From an uncultured beta proteobacterium (GTDB lineage: Bacteria; Pseudomonadota; Gammaproteobacteria; Burkholderiales; Burkholderiaceae_E), in the NCBI GenBank assembly GCA_903934295.1, contig CAIZNI010000056.1:124001-188000 (forward strand): DNA of 64,000 bases. The letters run 5' to 3'. Shown one piece after another: positions 40,745 through 50,487 of this stretch. Under the pieces are notes generated by a model that saw only the letters and a list, made by a program, of their open reading frames with translations, had not been told where the DNA came from and made no database searches. Positions within the stretch are counted from its first letter, which is position 1, and each line of letters begins with the position of its first letter. A program made the position numbers and the translations under genes.

Positions 40745-40834
40745 TTATAAACAACGGAATTATCTGTTGGACCGTTGGATGGCCTGCGCCCAGTATTCGT
40801 TCATCGCCACCCGCAACCTTCCAGGAGAAACACG

Positions 40835-41320
40835 ATGAACCAGCCCCAGTCAGTCACCCTTCGCAACCTCGAGTCGGCATTCGCCGGCGAGTCGATGGCC
40901 CACATCAAGTACCGCTATTTCGCGCGGATCGCCCGCGAGCAGGGCGACGAGGAAACCGCCCGCGTGTTCGAGGCGACCGCCGACCAGGAGGTCGCGCATG
41001 CCTTCGGCCACCTCGACCTGCTGTTTCCGAAATCACAGATGAGCCCGGCACGGGCGCTCGAACTGGCGATCGAGGGCGAGACCCACGAGTACACCGAGAT
41101 GTATCCGTCGTTCCGGCACCTCGCGATCGAGGAAGGCAACCAGGCGGCGGCGGCCGAGTTCGACGAGCAGATCGCCGAGTCGAAAGTGCATGCCGGTCAG
41201 TTCCGCGCCACGCTCGAGAAGGCCGCCAAGCGCTTCGCGGCGTTGGCAAAGGTGGAGGAGCGGCACGCCAATCATTATCGTGAGACGCTCGCCCGCGTGA
41301 CGGCCGCCAGGCCCGCCTGA
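40835..41320 (+). CDS. Rubrerythrin (di-iron peroxidase core, without rubredoxin domain)
   Basis: The start ATG at 40835 ([29 protein letters not shown]) follows AGGAGAAA, giving 161 residues. The four-helix di-iron ligands appear as [44 protein letters not shown] and [11 protein letters not shown]. Full-length rubrerythrins carry a C-terminal rubredoxin domain; here the protein ends after the bundle and a separate rubredoxin is encoded 83 bp downstream. It would reduce hydrogen peroxide to water with electrons from that rubredoxin. Controlled by the divergent OxyR (inference). Confidence 0.93.
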
Positions 41321-41403
41321 GCAGACGATCGAATCAGTCAGCCGGCGACGGCCATTCCCCGGGGCGACCGGCACGGCGCCCCTGTTCAACCAAGGAGCAA
41401 GAC

Positions 41404-41568
41404 ATGAAAAGCTGGATCTGTGTGGTGTGTGGTTTTGTCTATGATGAGGCCGCTGGCCTTCCCGACGACGGCATCGCGCCCGGCACCCGCTGGGATGACG
41501 TTCCCGCCGACTGGTCCTGCCCGGAGTGCGGTGTGGCCAAGAGCGATTTCGAGATGGTCGAAGCCTGA
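41404..41568 (+). CDS. Rubredoxin
   Basis: A 54-residue protein too short for the ORF track, start ATG 41404 after AAGGAG. The iron ligands are C6 and C9 ([15 protein letters not shown]) and C39 and C42 ([19 protein letters not shown]), the complete C-x2-C...C-P-x-C-G rubredoxin pattern, with the aromatic core (W4, Y13, W30, W37). It is the electron donor for the adjacent rubrerythrin core, or possibly for a non-haem alkane oxygenase elsewhere. The gene follows rubrerythrin in the same direction. Confidence 0.97.
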
Positions 41569-41590
41569 CGCCTGAACCTCGCTCTGCCGG

Positions 41591-42172
41591 ATGCCCATGG
41601 ATGCCTTCCTGATTTCCACCGGTGTCGTCGCGCTCGCCGAAATCGGCGACAAGACGCAACTGCTTTCATTCATCCTGGCGGCGAAGTTCCGGCGACCCTG
41701 GCCGATCTGCCTGGGCATCCTGGTGGCGACGCTGCTCAACCACGGGGTGGCGGGGGCGCTGGGCGCGTGGATCACCACGCTGCTGGATCCGCAGATGCTG
41801 CGCTGGGGACTGGGCGTCTCGTTCCTGGCGATGGCTGCCTGGATCCTGGTGCCTGACCGGTTCGACGAGAGCGAGGCGAAATTCGCGCGCCTGGGCGTGT
41901 TCGGCACCACCGTGGTCGCGTTCTTCCTGGCCGAGATGGGCGACAAGACGCAGATCGCGACGGTCGCGCTGGCGGCGCAGTACCACGCCTTCGTGGCGGT
42001 GGTGCTGGGCACCACGCTGGGCATGATGCTGGCCAATGTGCCGGCGGTGGTGCTGGGCGACCGGATCGCGCACCGGATGCCGGTGCGTCTGGTGCATTCG
42101 ATTGCCGCGGCCGTGTTCGCATTGCTGGGGGTGGCCACGCTGGCGGGGGCGGGCGAACGCTTCGGGTTCTGA
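41591..42172 (+). CDS. TMEM165/GDT1 (UPF0016)-family divalent cation transporter, probable Mn2+ exporter
   Basis: A 193-residue membrane protein with about six segments and two copies of the family motif E-x-G-D-K-T: EIGDKT at residues 17-22 and EMGDKT at 115-120. The duplicated arrangement is the inverted-repeat fold of GDT1 proteins, which move Mn2+ and/or Ca2+; bacterial relatives (MneA/MntX-like) export Mn2+. ATG 41591 or 41597 is possible. Located directly after OxyR, rubrerythrin and rubredoxin, so it likely adjusts manganese in relation to peroxide stress (inference). Confidence 0.92.
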   Translation: MPMDAFLISTGVVALAEIGDKTQLLSFILAAKFRRPWPICLGILVATLLNHGVAGALGAWITTLLDPQMLRWGLGVSFLAMAAWILVPDRFDESEAKFARLGVFGTTVVAFFLAEMGDKTQIATVALAAQYHAFVAVVLGTTLGMMLANVPAVVLGDRIAHRMPVRLVHSIAAAVFALLGVATLAGAGERFGF

Positions 42173-43533: not shown

Positions 43534-45225
43534 TCAATGCCCCTGGCGCAGCAGCTTGCCCGGCAGCGGCTGGTGAACCGCGCCGTTCTCGTCGGCGACC
43601 CGCTCGCCGTTGACCCACACGCCGAGCACGCCGCTGGACCGGGTGACCACCCGGGTCGCATTGGCCGGCAGGTCGTTGGCGCGCGAGCGCGCGCCGCGGC
43701 CCACGCGGGCCGGGTCGAACAGCAGCAGGTCGGCGGCCCAGCCTTCGCGCAGGCTGCCGCGCTCGCGAATGCCGAAGAAGTCGGCCTGGGCGCTGGTCAG
43801 GCGGCGCACCGCCTCGGGCATGCCCATGATGCCCTTGTCGCGCACCCAGTAGCCCATCAGATGCAGGCCGAAGCCCGAATCGTCCAGGAAGGACAGATGC
43901 GCCCCCGCGTCCGACAGCGAGATCAGGCTTTCGCTGTGGGTCAGCAGCTTCGCGACCGCCTGCTCGTCGTGATTGAGCGCGGTCAGCGAGAACAGCGTGC
44001 CCAGGTTCTCGGCGATGGCCAGGTCGAACAGGCAATCGAGCGGATCCACGCCGCGCTCGGCGGCGATGTCGGCGATGCTGCGGTCCTCGAGGGCGCTGTT
44101 TTCCGGATTGACGACCTGCAGCACCTGGATCAGTTGCCAGTTGCCGGAGAAGATCCGGCGGGCCGGGATCTTGAGTTCCTCGCGCAGGCCATTGCGCAGC
44201 ACCGGGTCGCGCATGCGCTCGATCAGGGCATCGCCCTTCAGACCGAAGATCGGTTTCCAGGCCAGCAGCGGCTCGAGCGGGTAGGGAGACTCGAATGAAA
44301 AGTCGAAGACCAGCGGGGTGGCGGCGACCGCGCCGCGCATCCGGTTGCCGCGCCGGTTGGCCGCGGCGATCCCGTCCAGGTCGTCGAACACCCCGTTGGG
44401 CGCCAGGCTCGAGTGCAGCAGCGCCGCGACCAGAACCGGTCGTCCCGATGCCGCCGCGAACTCCTCCAGCTTGGCCACCGGGGTGGGGGGGCCCTTGGTG
44501 ATCATGAACACGCCCTGGTCGCGATCGCGCATCGGCTTGGCCAGCGCCAGGAACTCCGACCAGTCGGCCAGCCGCGACGGCATGGGGCGGCCGTCGTAGG
44601 CGCTGTGCGATGTGGTGGTGGTCGAGGCCAGACCGATCGCACCCGCTGCCAGCGCTTCATCGACCAGCGCCTGCATGCGTGCCACCTCGTCGGGCGTCGC
44701 GGCGCGATCCGAGCCGTCGGAGCCCATCACATAGGTGCGCACCGTCGAATGACCGACGAAGGCGGCGAGGTTCATCGCGCAGCCGCCGGCTTCGATCTGG
44801 TCCATGTACTGGCTGAAGCTTTCGAAGTTCCAGCGGATGCCGGCCTGCAGGCTGGCCAGCGACATGCCCTCGACCTGGGTCAGGTTCTTGGTGACCAGGT
44901 CGCGCGATGCTGCGTCGGGGCGGCAAGGGGCGATGGTGAAGCCGCAGTTGCCGATGACAGCGGTGGTCACGCCCATGCCGACCGACTGGTCGAGATAGGG
45001 ATCCCAGGTGATCTGGGCATCGTAGTGGGTGTGGTTGTCGATGATGCCGGGCATCAGCGACTGGCCGGCGGCATCGATGTTTTCGCGGGCCTGGCTGGAG
45101 TCGATCGGGGCATCGCGGCGGCGCACTGCGGCGATGCGGCCGTCCTTGACGGCCACCTGGCCCTCGAAGGGTTCGGAACCGAGACCGTCGTAGATTTTGG
45201 CGTTTGAAATCAGCAGATCGAACAT
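43534..45225 (-). CDS. N-acyl-D-amino-acid deacylase/D-aminoacylase-type amidohydrolase
   Basis: A 563-residue amidohydrolase of D-aminoacylase/D-glutamate deacylase size. N-terminal beta-sandwich: MFDLLISNAKIYDGLGSEPF...AVKDGRIAAV; metal-binding HxH in PGIIDNHTHYDAQITWDPYLDQS; GVTTAVIGNCGFTIAPCRPD is the D-aminoacylase hallmark; and the C-terminal SDAGAHLSFLDD motif holds the catalytic Asp. AGGAGGA six bases before the ATG is a strong ribosome-binding site. These enzymes hydrolyse N-acyl-D-amino acids, though several are annotated for dihydropyrimidine-like or other amide substrates. Regulatory dyads lie in the upstream 135 bp. Confidence 0.92.
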   Translation of the reverse strand: MFDLLISNAKIYDGLGSEPFEGQVAVKDGRIAAVRRRDAPIDSSQARENIDAAGQSLMPGIIDNHTHYDAQITWDPYLDQSVGMGVTTAVIGNCGFTIAPCRPDAASRDLVTKNLTQVEGMSLASLQAGIRWNFESFSQYMDQIEAGGCAMNLAAFVGHSTVRTYVMGSDGSDRAATPDEVARMQALVDEALAAGAIGLASTTTTSHSAYDGRPMPSRLADWSEFLALAKPMRDRDQGVFMITKGPPTPVAKLEEFAAASGRPVLVAALLHSSLAPNGVFDDLDGIAAANRRGNRMRGAVAATPLVFDFSFESPYPLEPLLAWKPIFGLKGDALIERMRDPVLRNGLREELKIPARRIFSGNWQLIQVLQVVNPENSALEDRSIADIAAERGVDPLDCLFDLAIAENLGTLFSLTALNHDEQAVAKLLTHSESLISLSDAGAHLSFLDDSGFGLHLMGYWVRDKGIMGMPEAVRRLTSAQADFFGIRERGSLREGWAADLLLFDPARVGRGARSRANDLPANATRVVTRSSGVLGVWVNGERVADENGAVHQPLPGKLLRQGH

Positions 45226-45360: not shown

Positions 45361-45870
45361 TCAGCGCCAGCCGTGATGCGGGTGCCCGCGGTGATGGCGG
45401 TGATGGCGATAGCCGTGGTAGCCGTAGGCGGGAATCACCACCACCGGTGCCGGGCGATAGTAGTGGGGCTGGGCCTGGTAGACCGGCACGACATGAACGG
45501 GTGCGGCGTAGGCGGTGCCCGCAGGGATCAGCGGCCGGTAGGCGACGGGCGGGTGCGGCGCGCGGGCGTGGTTCGGCGGGTAGTAGGCCGGCGGGTGGCC
45601 GTAGGTCTGCGGGTGGCCGTAGCTGTGCGGGTGGCCATAGCTCTGCGGGTGGCCGTAGGTATGCCGGTGGCCGTAGGTGGGCGGATGGCCGTAGGTGGGC
45701 GGATGGCCGTAGGCGGGCGCGTAGGTCTGCGAATGGCCGGTGACCAGACTGGCGCCGACGACGCCCTGCGGGCCGATGACGATGCTGGCGCCGAAGTCCT
45801 GCGCGAGGGCCGCGGACGCGGCCGTCGCGGTGACACCGGCCGCCAGCAGTGCGATGAGCCTTCTGTGCAT
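45361..45870 (-). CDS. Secreted low-complexity protein with YGHP hexapeptide repeats
   Basis: The start ATG at 45870 follows GGAGGT five bases upstream, giving 169 residues. A signal peptide of about 24 residues (RRLIALLAAGVTATAASAALAQ) is followed by DFGASIVIGPQGVVGAS. The central region repeats YGHP(P/Q/H)(T/S) about seven times, and the C-terminal region is rich in His, Tyr, Pro and Arg (YHGYRHHRHHRGHPHHGWR). No enzyme motif is visible. The His/Tyr density suggests metal binding, cell-surface adhesion or a disordered periplasmic role. The longer track start is unsupported. Confidence 0.8.
   Translation of the reverse strand: MHRRLIALLAAGVTATAASAALAQDFGASIVIGPQGVVGASLVTGHSQTYAPAYGHPPTYGHPPTYGHRHTYGHPQSYGHPHSYGHPQTYGHPPAYYPPNHARAPHPPVAYRPLIPAGTAYAAPVHVVPVYQAQPHYYRPAPVVVIPAYGYHGYRHHRHHRGHPHHGWR
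45583..45708. repeat. Seven tandem copies of an 18-bp unit within the YGHP protein gene
   Basis: Contiguous 18-bp units (for example GTAGGTGGGCGGATGGCC, two identical neighbours, others diverged) encode the hexapeptide repeat of the secreted protein. Unit length is a multiple of three, so copy-number change leaves the frame intact. Identity between neighbouring units is higher on the left-hand, C-terminal side of the gene and at the exact duplicate near 45673-45708. Confidence 0.9.
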
Positions 45871-46066
45871 GGTGAACCTCCGTGATAATGGTTGAACGCG
45901 ATGGTTGAACGCGAGAGGAAATCGGGTCGGTGCTGCCTGGGCGATCAGTGCATCAACCCGCCTTGGACGGTCCGCGAAATCGCCCCGCCTCCTGTTTGAA
46001 CGCAGCCGGTTCGTGCCGGCCGACCCGCGCGATCCTGGCTTACAAACCGTTACCGCCCATCGCCCC

Positions 46067-47281
46067 TTGAATCCCACCGAAACCCGAAACGCCGGCCTGC
46101 TGCCGGTGGCGATCGTTCTGCTGGCCGGCATGGTGGCGGCACTGAACATCGGCAAGTTGCCGCCCTCGATGCCGGCACTGCGCCAGAGCTTCTCCCTGAC
46201 GCTGGTGCAGGCGAGCTACCTCGTCTCGATCTTCCAGCTCGCGGGGCTGTCGCTGGGTCTGTTCGGGGGCCTGCTCGCCGACCGGTTCGGGCCGCGCCGG
46301 GTGATGGGCTGCGGGCTGGCGCTGCTTGCGTTGAGCAGCGGTGCGGGCGCCTTCGCCGGCGATGCGCTCACCCTGCTGGTCTTGCGCGCCCTGGAAAGTG
46401 CCGGCTTCATCCTGACCGTGCTGCCGGGGCCTGCCCTGCTGCGCCGGGGCGTTGATCCGGCGCGCCTGTCCTGGGCACTGGGCTGCTGGGGCTGTTACAT
46501 GCCGGCCGGCATGGCGACGATGATGCTGGCCACGCCCTGGCTGATCGGGCAGTGGGGCTGGACGAGTGCGTGGGCGGTGTGTGCGGGCCTCGCGGTGCTC
46601 ACGCTGCTGGTGCTGCAGCGCGTGCCGCCCGATGCGCGCCGCGCCGACACCTCGGACGGCGTCGCGCGACTGGCCCGCGACACGCTGGGCAGCCCCGGCC
46701 CGTGGTGGCTGGCCCTGTGTTTCGGGCTGTATGCCGGCCAGTTCATCGCGATGTTCAGTTTCCTGCCGACGGTCTATCTGGCGGCAGGCATTTCCGCGGC
46801 GCTCGCCGGCTCGCTGTCGGCGCTGGGCGTGGCGGTCAATGTGCTCGGCAACCTCGCCGCGGGCGTGCTGCTGACGCGCGGTGTGCCCCGACACTGGCTG
46901 ATTGCGGGAACCTCCCTGGTGATGGCCGCCGGTGCCGGCGCCGCTTTCGCCGAGGCGCTGCCCTTCGGGTGGCGGTTTTTCGCGGTCCTGTGTTTCTCGG
47001 CTGCCGGTGGGCTGATCCCGGGGACCCTGTTTGCGACCGCGCCGCGCTTCGCCCCCCATGCCGGCGCGGTATCGACCACCACCGGACTGATGCAGCAGGG
47101 GTCGGCGATCGGCCAGGCGCTGTCGCCGCCGCTGGTGGCGGCGGTGGCCAGCGGCCCGGGCGGCTGGCCACTGGCCAGCGCCTGCCTCGCGGCATTTGCG
47201 CTCGCCAACCTGGGCGCGGCCTGGGCGATCGGGCGGTTCGAGGCTCGCCAGGCAGTGAGCCGGGTGTCGGCGGGTCGTTGA
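46067..47281 (+). CDS. Major facilitator superfamily transporter (CynX/NimT-like)
   Basis: About 404 residues from a TTG at 46067 (after H-R-P); the track uses a TTG at 45905, which would add an unlikely Arg-rich leader, and no ATG precedes the first helix, so the start is uncertain. Twelve hydrophobic segments; the helix 2-3 loop is FGGLLADRFGPRRVMGCG, the MFS A-motif. MPALRQSFSLTLVQASYLVSIFQLAGLSLGLFGG and the general order resemble the CynX/NimT group of cyanate or 2-nitroimidazole carriers. Substrate unknown. It lies between the divergent YGHP protein and the orphan ParA gene. Confidence 0.85.
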   Translation: MNPTETRNAGLLPVAIVLLAGMVAALNIGKLPPSMPALRQSFSLTLVQASYLVSIFQLAGLSLGLFGGLLADRFGPRRVMGCGLALLALSSGAGAFAGDALTLLVLRALESAGFILTVLPGPALLRRGVDPARLSWALGCWGCYMPAGMATMMLATPWLIGQWGWTSAWAVCAGLAVLTLLVLQRVPPDARRADTSDGVARLARDTLGSPGPWWLALCFGLYAGQFIAMFSFLPTVYLAAGISAALAGSLSALGVAVNVLGNLAAGVLLTRGVPRHWLIAGTSLVMAAGAGAAFAEALPFGWRFFAVLCFSAAGGLIPGTLFATAPRFAPHAGAVSTTTGLMQQGSAIGQALSPPLVAAVASGPGGWPLASACLAAFALANLGAAWAIGRFEARQAVSRVSAGR

Positions 47282-47427: not shown

Positions 47428-48216
47428 ATGAAACGGGTCGTTTTCAACCAGAAGGGCGGGGTTGGCAAGTCGACGATCGCGGTGAATCTGGCGGCGATCG
47501 CCGCGTCGCGCGGGCGGCGCACGCTGCTGATCGACCTGGACACGCAGGGCAATTCCTCGCGTTACCTGCTGGGCGACGCCGCGATGGACATCAAGCCCAC
47601 CACTGCCGATTTTTTCGAGCACAGCCTGTCGTTCCGGCTGTCGTCGATGTCGATCGGCGAGTATGTGCATCCGACGCCCTTCGAGAACCTGATGCTGATG
47701 CCGGCCAGCCCGGGTCTGGCCGACCTGCAGTCCAAGCTCGAGTCGCGATCGAAGATCCTGAAGCTGCGCAAGGCGCTGGAGGAACTGGAGGGCTTCGATG
47801 AAATGATCATCGACACGCCGCCGGCACTGAATTTCTATACCCGCTCGGCGCTGATTGCCGCCGATGCCTGCCTGATTCCCTTCGACTGCGACGACTTTTC
47901 CCGCCAGGCGCTCTATGGGCTGCTGGAGGCGGTCGAGGAGATCCGGGACGATCACAACGAAGGCCTGCGTGTCGAAGGCATCGTCGTGAACCAGTACCAG
48001 GCGCGGGCTGCCCAGCCGCAGCGCATCGTGCAGGAACTGATCGACGAGAAGCTGCCGGTGCTGGCGAGCCGGCTGTCGTCCTCGGTGAAGGTTCGCGAGT
48101 CCCATGACGCGGCCTCGCCGCTGATTTCGCTGGCGCCCTCGCACAAGCTCACCCTCGAGTTCATCGCCTTGTACGAGGAACTCGAACGCCGCCGCAAGGG
48201 CGCCCGCAAGCGCTAG
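47428..48216 (+). CDS. ParA-family ATPase without an adjacent ParB
   Basis: A 262-residue P-loop ATPase starting at ATG 47428 after AAGAGG. The deviant Walker A is KGGVGKST (residues 9-16), followed by the A' motif LLIDLDTQGNSS and Walker B MIIDTPP. ADACLIPFDCDDFSRQALYGLL and IVVNQYQARAAQPQRIVQELI are usual ParA/Soj positions. Neither a ParB gene nor parS-like sequence is visible, and the neighbours (MFS, alcohol dehydrogenase) are metabolic. Such orphan ParA proteins can position proteins, flagella, chemoreceptors or storage granules rather than DNA. The C-terminus is basic (RRRKGARKR). Confidence 0.92.
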   Translation: MKRVVFNQKGGVGKSTIAVNLAAIAASRGRRTLLIDLDTQGNSSRYLLGDAAMDIKPTTADFFEHSLSFRLSSMSIGEYVHPTPFENLMLMPASPGLADLQSKLESRSKILKLRKALEELEGFDEMIIDTPPALNFYTRSALIAADACLIPFDCDDFSRQALYGLLEAVEEIRDDHNEGLRVEGIVVNQYQARAAQPQRIVQELIDEKLPVLASRLSSSVKVRESHDAASPLISLAPSHKLTLEFIALYEELERRRKGARKR

Positions 48217-49343
48217 AACGCGCTGTCGAGCATCTGCAGGTAGTCCTCGCGGGTGGCGGTGCGCGGGTTGGTGAGGTGGCAGTGGTCGAGCAGCGCCGCG
48301 TCGGCGATGCCGGCCAGGTGGGCGCGCTGCAGACCCATCGCGCCCAGGCCGGCGGGCAGGCCGAGCCGCTGATTCAGACCTTCGATGAACGCCGCCGGAT
48401 CGCTGCCCGGGGCGATGCCGAGCGCATCGGTCAGGGTGCGCGCCTTGGCGGTGATCGCTGGCGCGTTGAAACGCAGCACCGCCGGAAGCAGCATCGCGTT
48501 GAGCGTTCCGTGGTGCAGCGCCAGCCCCGGCACCGCGCCCAGCGGGTGCGACAGCGCGTGCACCGCGCCCAGGCCTTTCTGGAAGGCCATCGCGCCTTCC
48601 ATCGCCGCCATCATCATCTCCCAGCGCGCGGTGCGGTCCGAGCCGTCGCGGGTGGCGCGCTCGATGTGGCCGATCGCCCGGCGCAGGCCGTCGAGCGCGA
48701 TCGCTTCGGCCGGCGGATTGATCGACGGTGCGATGAAGGTCTCGATGCAGTGCGCGATCGCGTCCATGCCGGTGGCGGCGGTGATGCCCGCCGGCAGGCC
48801 GAGCGTGAGTTCGGGGTCACACAGCGCCAGCCGGGGCAGCAGGTTCGGGCTCAGCAGGCCGAGCTTGCGGCCGTTGCGCATCACGATGACGCTGCCGCGG
48901 CCGACTTCGCTGCCGGTGCCGGCGGTGGTCGGGATGGCGATCAGGGGCGCCACCTTCGGCGTGATCCGCGCGACGCCGCCTTCGACCGCTGCGTATTGCA
49001 GCAGCTCGCCCGGGTGGGTGGTGATGAGGGCGACCGCCTTGGCCAGGTCGATCGACGACCCGCCGCCCACCGCCACCAGACCGTCGCACCCGCTGTCGCG
49101 ATAGACCTGGGCCGCGGTCATCACCGCGTCCTCGGTGGGATTGGGCGGCGTGCCGTCCCACACGGTGGTGCGGGCGGCGCTGCCGATGGTCTCGAGCACG
49201 CGGGCGGCGATCCCGGCGGCGACCACCCCGCGATCGGTGACCAGCATCGGGTGGGCGATGCCCAGTTTCTTCAGCTCCGCGGGCAGCAGGCTCAGGGCGC
49301 CGAAGTCGAACTGGATGGTGGTGAGGTAGGTGATGGTGGCCAT
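48213..49343 (-). CDS. Iron-containing alcohol dehydrogenase (group III)
   Basis: A 376-residue Fe-ADH: GALSLLPAELKKLGIAHPMLVTDRGVVAAG at the N-terminus, nucleotide-binding CDGLVAVGGGSSIDLAKAVAL, APLIAIPTTAGTGSEVGRGSVI, and the metal-binding His residues in GMDAIAHCIETFI and GAVHALSHPLGAVPGLALHHG. These oxidise alcohols or reduce aldehydes, or act on maleylacetate and hydroxyacids. The stop overlaps the convergent ParA stop by four bases. Upstream 117 bp to ccmH contain an 18-bp tandem repeat. The substrate cannot be inferred. Confidence 0.93.
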   Translation of the reverse strand: MATITYLTTIQFDFGALSLLPAELKKLGIAHPMLVTDRGVVAAGIAARVLETIGSAARTTVWDGTPPNPTEDAVMTAAQVYRDSGCDGLVAVGGGSSIDLAKAVALITTHPGELLQYAAVEGGVARITPKVAPLIAIPTTAGTGSEVGRGSVIVMRNGRKLGLLSPNLLPRLALCDPELTLGLPAGITAATGMDAIAHCIETFIAPSINPPAEAIALDGLRRAIGHIERATRDGSDRTARWEMMMAAMEGAMAFQKGLGAVHALSHPLGAVPGLALHHGTLNAMLLPAVLRFNAPAITAKARTLTDALGIAPGSDPAAFIEGLNQRLGLPAGLGAMGLQRAHLAGIADAALLDHCHLTNPRTATREDYLQMLDSAF

Positions 49344-49374
49344 GGCGGTTCCGGCAGTGGAGGGCGGGGAATGC

Positions 49375-49416
49375 AGAGGAGACAGGAAAGACAGAGGGGA
49401 CAGGAAAGACAGAGGG
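49375..49416. repeat. Tandem 18-bp repeat (about 2.3 copies), AGAGG(A/G)GACAGGAAAGAC
   Basis: Two neighbouring 18-bp units differ at one base (49375-49392, 49393-49410) and a third begins AGAGGG. It occupies the gap between the alcohol dehydrogenase start (49343) and the ccmH stop (49460). On the plus strand it is strongly purine-biased (A and G only, apart from two C per unit). Confidence 0.85.
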
Positions 49417-49459
49417 CGGATCGGGTGGAGGGCGACTGACGCCGTCGACGGTGCGCCGG

Positions 49460-49957
49460 TCAGTCGTCGAGCAGGCGGCGGGCCCGCTCCAGCTCGCTGG
49501 CCGGGGCGGTGACCGGGGCGGTGGCCGGAGCGACCGGTCGAGCCGTTTCAGGCGCGCGGGCCCGTGGCGCCGTCCGGCCTGCGTCGGATCCGGTGGCTTC
49601 GGCCGCCAGACGGCTGCGGCGCTGCACCAGCGTCCAGACCAGGGCGCCGCCGGCCAGCAGCGCGAAGGGGCCGCCCCAGAGCAGGGCGGTGTTGCGCTGC
49701 ATCGGCGGCTTGTAGAGAACGAAGTCGCCGTAGCGCTCGACCAGATAGTCCTTGATCTGGGTGTCGGTGCGACCGGAGGCGATCAGTTCCTGCACCTGGT
49801 TGCGCAGGTCGATGGCGAGGTCGGCGTTCGAGTCGGCCAGGGTCTGGTTCTGGCAGACCAGACAGCGCAGTTCCTCGGAGAGCGCGCGCAGGCGCACCTG
49901 CCCGGCGGCGTCGAGCGGCGGCGGGGGCGGCGAGGTGGGGGTGGCGGGACGGCTCAT
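49460..49957 (-). CDS. ccmH: Cytochrome c maturation protein CcmH (thioredoxin-like CxxC)
   Basis: A 165-residue protein with the CcmH/CycL core: ALSEELRCLVCQNQTLADSNADLAIDLRNQVQELI, redox pair C32 and C35 (LRCLVCQ), and YLVERYGDFVLYKPP. A single C-terminal transmembrane segment (NTALLWGGPFALLAGGALVWTLV) follows, then an extended Ala/Pro tail. CcmH reduces apocytochrome c CxxCH in the periplasm. Oddly, no signal peptide precedes the domain: the protein starts MSRPATPTSPPPPPLDAAG, and no upstream start codon exists in the frame. Start overlaps the ccmG stop (ATGA). Confidence 0.9.
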   Translation of the reverse strand: MSRPATPTSPPPPPLDAAGQVRLRALSEELRCLVCQNQTLADSNADLAIDLRNQVQELIASGRTDTQIKDYLVERYGDFVLYKPPMQRNTALLWGGPFALLAGGALVWTLVQRRSRLAAEATGSDAGRTAPRARAPETARPVAPATAPVTAPASELERARRLLDD

Positions 49958-50487
49958 TCGGCTTTGAGCTTTGCGATCAGCGGCGCGAGCCGGCGTTCGA
50001 TGACGTCGGCGGTGAGCGGCCCGACGTGCTTGTCGCGCACGATGCCCGCCTTGTCGATGATGAAGGTTTCCGGCGCGCCGTAGACCCCCCAGTCAATGGC
50101 GGCCTTGCCGTTGCGGTCGCTGAGGTTGAGCGCGTACGGATTGCCGAGCCGCGCCAGCCACGCCTGTGATGCCTCGGGTTCGTCCTTCCAGGCCAGCCCG
50201 ACGATCGGCGCCAGACCGCGCTTTGCCCAGTCATTGAGCAGCGGATGCTCGACCTGGCAGCCGGCGCACCACGAACCCCAGACGTTGAGCAGCCAGACCT
50301 GGCCGCGCATGCGTGCCGGCGACCAGTCAGGACCCGCGCCCCCTAGCAGCGGCACGCTCACCGCCGGCGCGGGTCGCCCGACCAGGGGCGACGGGATCTC
50401 GCGCGGGTCGCGGTCCAGTCCCTTGAGCAGGAACCAGGCGATGCCGGCGAACAGGGCCAGCGGGAGGAGGAACTTGAGCGCTCGCAT
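49954..50487 (-). CDS. ccmG: Thiol:disulfide interchange protein CcmG/DsbE
   Basis: A 177-residue membrane-anchored thioredoxin-like protein. The N-terminal anchor is LKFLLPLALFAGIAWFLLKGL, followed by DPREIPSPLVGRPAP (a DsbE hallmark) and the active site WCAGC at residues 73-77 (GSWCAGCQVEHP; usually WCxxC). GVYGAPETFIIDKAGIVRDKHVGPL completes the fold with its cis-Pro. It passes reducing equivalents to CcmH or the apocytochrome in the periplasm. Confidence 0.95.
   Translation of the reverse strand: MRALKFLLPLALFAGIAWFLLKGLDRDPREIPSPLVGRPAPAVSVPLLGGAGPDWSPARMRGQVWLLNVWGSWCAGCQVEHPLLNDWAKRGLAPIVGLAWKDEPEASQAWLARLGNPYALNLSDRNGKAAIDWGVYGAPETFIIDKAGIVRDKHVGPLTADVIERRLAPLIAKLKAE

Follow-up and report, generated by a model that had tools for sequence, protein, structure and literature searches.

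A small secreted protein with a YGHP array and a candidate RisA box upstream of its gene in an uncultured beta proteobacterium

The gene examined here lies in a 64,000-nucleotide stretch of DNA from an uncultured beta proteobacterium (GenBank assembly GCA_903934295.1, contig CAIZNI010000056.1, positions 124,001 to 188,000; hereafter the window, whose numbering is used throughout). It encodes a short protein carrying a tandem hexapeptide repeat, and raises the question of whether such a protein is an orphan or belongs to a family, and what might control it. The reading frame (45361..45870, minus strand) specifies 169 amino acids. It opens with an ATG directly preceded by the Shine-Dalgarno sequence CGGAGGTTCACC, its GC content by codon position is of the coding type (0.74/0.55/0.88), and a search of the genome found a single copy of the gene. 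Antisense reading frames on the plus strand were set aside, since it is the minus-strand frame that has the signal peptide, the Shine-Dalgarno sequence, and the coding-type GC by position.

The translation begins with a predicted signal peptide, MHRRLIALLAAGVTATAASAALA (residues 1-23; 45802..45870), which ends in ALA ahead of QDF and is common to the orthologues described below. The N-terminal part of the mature protein, QDFGASIVIGPQGVVGAS (45715..45801), matches the DVxWSVxVGSxG of the orthologues in alignments, and is followed by seven hexapeptide units, a Pro/Tyr-rich stretch, and the His/Arg-rich tail YGYHGYRHHRHHRGHPHHGWR (45364..45426). Both the exported nature of the protein and the His/Arg-rich tail, as proposed in the first-pass annotation, could be read directly from the translation. 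The statement that the protein falls in no named family also held, with no match in Pfam or NCBIfam, and a search of the PDB likewise returned nothing significant. An AlphaFold2 model had a mean pLDDT of 47 and left the array without structure; beta strands were placed with low confidence after the signal peptide, at residues 26-32, 38-44, and 47-51. At such a mean pLDDT the structure prediction was uninformative, and the low value speaks for a largely disordered protein.

The seven units (residues 54-95; 45586..45711, minus strand), delimited by Tandem Repeats Finder and unit comparison, run in the order YGHPPT, YGHPPT, YGHRHT, YGHPQS, YGHPHS, YGHPQT, and YGHPPA. Tandem Repeats Finder reported a period of 18, 7.3 copies, and a score of 164 for 45583-45713, and the periodic-identity score of 48 exceeded the maximum of 32 among 2000 residue shuffles; the 18-bp tandem array described in the first-pass annotation is therefore real. 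Of the seven units, the third reads YGHR and the other six have YGHP. Units 1 and 2 are identical in DNA (18/18 bp), and the remaining pairs match at 13-17/18 bp. When the units were compared directly, the YGHP codons were found to differ mostly synonymously and the last two codons of the unit mostly non-synonymously, a silent-site bias that hints at selection on the motif, with few changes behind this reading. Among the titles listed in a literature search, YGHP appeared only in unrelated uses, and "PXPV repeat" gave no match.

Relatives of the protein were recognized chiefly by position. At the same place and in the same orientation, divergent from a gene for an MFS transporter, four species of the genus (G001, G004, G007, and G008) carry an open reading frame for a small secreted Pro/Tyr/His-rich protein. 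A family profile built from these four proteins and the window protein then matched proteins in G003 (6.4e-23) and G009 (1.0e-8), so that six further species of the genus were found to carry a diverged gene of this kind. The G009 gene is likewise divergent from the MFS gene, an arrangement shared by five of the six relatives, and in G003 the small gene and its upstream box are kept though no MFS orthologue was found there. In G002 and G006 the small gene is absent, and an amidohydrolase gene (87% identical) directly adjoins the MFS gene. The common plan of the family is a signal peptide, a [DE]VxWSVxVGSxG-like motif, a linker rich in Pro and in most cases also in Tyr, and a basic tail that is usually rich in His. 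Identity among the orthologues is 30-41%, and alignment shows that the Trp of VxWSVxVG has been lost in the window protein. A held-out profile made without the window protein scored it at 16.0 bits, compared with a best score of 8.0 among 1000 shuffles. The kinship of the window protein with its orthologues is real but weak in sequence, being partly compositional, and is underpinned by position as well. When 200 related genomes were searched with the protein, most matches were compositional, and the true G004 orthologue was recognized by synteny; whole-protein searches of genome contigs and viral contigs gave no convincing relative, and plasmids only partial matches over the repeat region.

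The YGHP protein is best explained as a rapidly evolving representative of a so far unnamed protein family of this betaproteobacterial lineage, whose members are small, secreted, and rich in Pro, Tyr, and His. Whereas the first-pass annotation would have taken the lack of any homologue as counting against its reading, syntenic homologues exist. The search for the repeat in related genomes, which it had also proposed, brought out these diverged orthologues, but YGHP units occur in none of the six and are confined to the window species. Because of this, we infer that the array is a recent, species-specific expansion of a variable linker by tandem duplication. No report of this secreted family was found in the literature searched.

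The syntenic MFS transporter gene (46067..47281, plus strand, start codon uncertain; Pfam MFS_1, 1.3e-36) is divergent from the small gene, and the downstream neighbor (43534..45225, minus strand) encodes an Amidohydrolase_3 family enzyme by Pfam that is probably unrelated. Beyond the MFS gene, at 47428-50487, are genes for a ParA-type ATPase, an Fe-ADH, CcmH, and a CcmG-like protein. Several relatives, too, have CcmH/CcmG genes close to the small gene or the MFS gene. On the other side of the locus, genes for rubrerythrin, rubredoxin, and a GDT1 cation antiporter lie consecutively at 40775-42172.

The 220 nt upstream of the seven orthologues (that of the window and the six others) were then compared. 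Within otherwise poorly conserved sequence, one block stood out, GTAA(G/C)-N4-GTAAC-N5-GTAA(G/A/T). The direct-repeat box GTAAC-N5-GTAAG, usually as a triple GTAA, is upstream of all seven orthologues, with one mismatch in G007. In the window the predicted response-regulator box of RisA type is GTAACGGTTTGTAA(G) (46040..46053, minus strand), 169 nt 5' of the ATG; the last two of the three half-sites are kept (CGGTAACGGTTTGTAAG) and the first is gone. The core GTAACNNNNTGTAA has its sole exact match in the 4.6-Mb genome in the upstream region of this gene. Exact matches to the box numbered seven in ten genomes of the genus, six of them ahead of the small gene. The box pattern itself was taken from the very promoters cited in its favor, and its count shows no enrichment over the reversed-pattern control, which also gave seven. 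In another genus, G012 has a single exact box, ahead of a gene for a secreted protein (GGSWSVTVGGYGPPVYGG...) that the protein profile had overlooked. Where an MFS locus has no small gene, the box is missing too.

A hexamer, TAGSAT (TAGCAT or TAGGAT), follows the box by 29-30 nt in six of the seven species and faces the small gene; it is a possible -10 element. The conserved box and the fixed spacing of TAGSAT in the relatives argue that the family is transcribed. The window species has no TAGSAT at 29-30 nt after its box, and a sigma-70 consensus scan of its promoter region found nothing. Since the hexamer and first half-site are missing, and no other of the seven orthologues has its box so far from the ATG, the promoter of the window species may have drifted. 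Between its box and ribosome-binding site is a 13-bp direct repeat, two tandem copies of ATGGTTGAACGCG (45888..45914), which was not seen upstream of the orthologues.

The regulator that might recognize the box was suggested by where else the box occurs. The triple GTAA pattern had 15 matches in the ten genomes of the genus, at 13 places because three in the window species' own genome overlap, compared with three for the reversed pattern, and five of the 15 are ahead of the small gene. In four species (G001, G005, G008, and G009) triple boxes lie between a gene for an OmpR-type regulator and a divergent gene for a small secreted protein. In the own genome a one-mismatch box is found at the corresponding operon (L137, G000:C16, box near 1501), between it and a divergent small secreted gene (AHSPPERLEPQERARLRHELRQQ...). 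The regulator of this operon has Response_reg and Trans_reg_C domains and is closest in the PDB to OmpR of E. coli (8.5e-49), and the adjoining kinase gene encodes a RisS_PPD domain (2.1e-31). Because of the OmpR match and the RisS periplasmic domain in the next gene, the pair was read as RisA/RisS. The arrangement of risA-risS with a divergent small secreted gene was also observed in other genera. Across 200 genomes of the order there were 26 triple boxes, five of them at risA (regulator identity 69-81%), a total below that of the reversed-pattern control, so the argument from the box is one of position rather than of counts. In Bordetella pertussis, the RisA motif obtained by ChIP-seq is GTTACA, and a RisA site is present in the promoter of risA itself (PMC11019879); read on the opposite strand, the half-site TGTAAC is GTTACA. 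From these positions and motifs, the YGHP gene is probably controlled by RisA/RisS through the upstream tandem GTAAC half-sites. No RisA data for environmental Burkholderiales were found in the literature searched.

As the box sits between two divergent genes, it could instead serve the MFS gene, or be bound by an OmpR-family regulator other than RisA, such as one like CpxR. The latter is conceivable because the box of E. coli CpxR, GTAAA-N5-GTAAA, is a similar repeat (PMC12802237), and because G006 as well as the own genome has a related box near a gene for an LTXXQ (CpxP/Spy-type) protein. We nonetheless consider such a use of the box unlikely, given the missing box at MFS loci without the small gene, the retention of gene and box in G003, the orientation of the TAGSAT hexamer toward the small gene, and the triple box that marks the risA-risS promoter in several genera. 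Neutral drift would account for the protein in another way, as a weakly constrained, secreted low-complexity linker with an array that is noise from slippage. The very low identity of the orthologues, the absence of the gene from G002 and G006, and the lack of a confidently predicted structure are all in keeping with drift, but gene, place, and box are retained in most species of the genus, and most variation in the YGHP codons is silent, in contrast to the free variation of the last two codons of the unit. We regard drift as improbable.

A further possibility is that the protein is a periplasmic or secreted buffer for transition metals. Zn, Ni, or Cu would then be bound by histidines in the YGHP units and the HHRHHRGHPHH tail, and metal binding would be what the repeat was expanded for. 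The window protein has 22 His after residue 20, and His-rich low-complexity regions of bacterial proteins show strong enrichment in those that bind nickel and cobalt (PMC6821194). Its best PDB match, below threshold (E 0.054), was the periplasmic zinc-binding protein PA4063 of Pseudomonas (PMC10393844), but this match is not significant and runs over the His-rich repeat. The orthologues have only 3-14 His in the same region, at positions that are not conserved, and none has YGHP units. Pfam pointed to metal handling in neither direct neighbor and in none of the next four genes on the side of the MFS gene, and the GDT1 antiporter gene is approximately 3.2 kb away in another cluster. Metal binding, suggested by the first-pass annotation from the spacing of the repeat as one option beside a putative adhesive surface role, is accordingly not borne out as a conserved role of the family, and a dedicated metal buffer in the window species seems doubtful to us.

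The reading we prefer, and hold to be somewhat better than an even prospect as a whole, is that of a disordered exported envelope protein of an unnamed family under the control of RisA. Envelope stress, sensed by RisS, would lead RisA to bind the direct repeats and activate transcription of the gene. The product would pass through Sec to the periplasm or the cell surface, and might there serve as a bulk, flexible, weakly ligand-binding component of the envelope, for example in proton or metal-ion buffering through His or as a surface coat. More speculatively, and with little confidence on our part, disordered Tyr/Pro/His-rich exported proteins could form a widespread unnamed class that is a regular output of RisA/RisS in Burkholderiales, with fast-changing arrays tuning a pH- or metal-responsive envelope coat. 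A repeat protein that looked like an orphan is placed in a family conserved at its locus, and its proposed regulator can be tested. The regulatory link, which sits outside 45361-45870, is the more useful finding. It supplies a candidate RisA box (triple GTAA with TAGSAT 29-30 nt downstream) with which targets of RisA can be predicted in environmental Burkholderiales.

Several known systems resemble this one in part. The His-rich metal-binding proteins (PA4063, DUF2796) are likewise exported and have a His-rich low-complexity stretch, but the window protein has no significant homology to them, no flanking metal genes were found, and its His residues are not kept in the orthologues. Tyr/Pro-rich glycine-zipper proteins of related genera share with it a signal peptide, an (A)PVY/YAPP linker, a basic tail, and an upstream GTAAC box; they differ in having domain PF13441, absent from the window protein by Pfam, and in the box being inverted relative to their genes. 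Such secreted glycine-zipper proteins, with PVYAPAPVYAP-like linkers and the inverted box upstream, were observed at many loci of the genus g7 (L072, L075, L076, L079, L083, L084, L092, and others), and at several loci (L128, L131, L133, L134, and L136) an AsmA-like gene, named by eye, is divergent. A second secreted family, VGVSISIGQPGFYGRIDIG...PPGHAKDWxKHCxxYxACGxPVYFV, has an N-terminus resembling VxWSVxVG (L077, L081, L082, L085, L086, L088, L090, and L091). Sites of the form GTAAC[GA]GTTTGTAA were also seen in genus g7 (L129, L130, and L132) between a Crp/Fnr-like gene and an MgtC-like or universal-stress-protein gene, again by eye.

The CpxR box and its CpxP/Spy targets are similar in direct-repeat architecture, in having envelope targets, and in the related box near the LTXXQ gene of this genome. 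However, most half-sites here have C or G as their last base where that of CpxR has A, the kinase linked here resembles RisS, and the window protein has no LTXXQ domain by Pfam. At G000:C61:18492-18514 (L144/L159) the triple GTAA box is near a secreted LTXXQ protein with a His/Met-rich stretch, and a similar pair is present in G006 (L151). Compared with the RisA regulon, the target family at this locus is unnamed and the link to RisA is read from sequence, but the two are alike in their TGTAAC/GTAAC half-sites, in a box ahead of risA-risS in several species, and in an exported protein as target.
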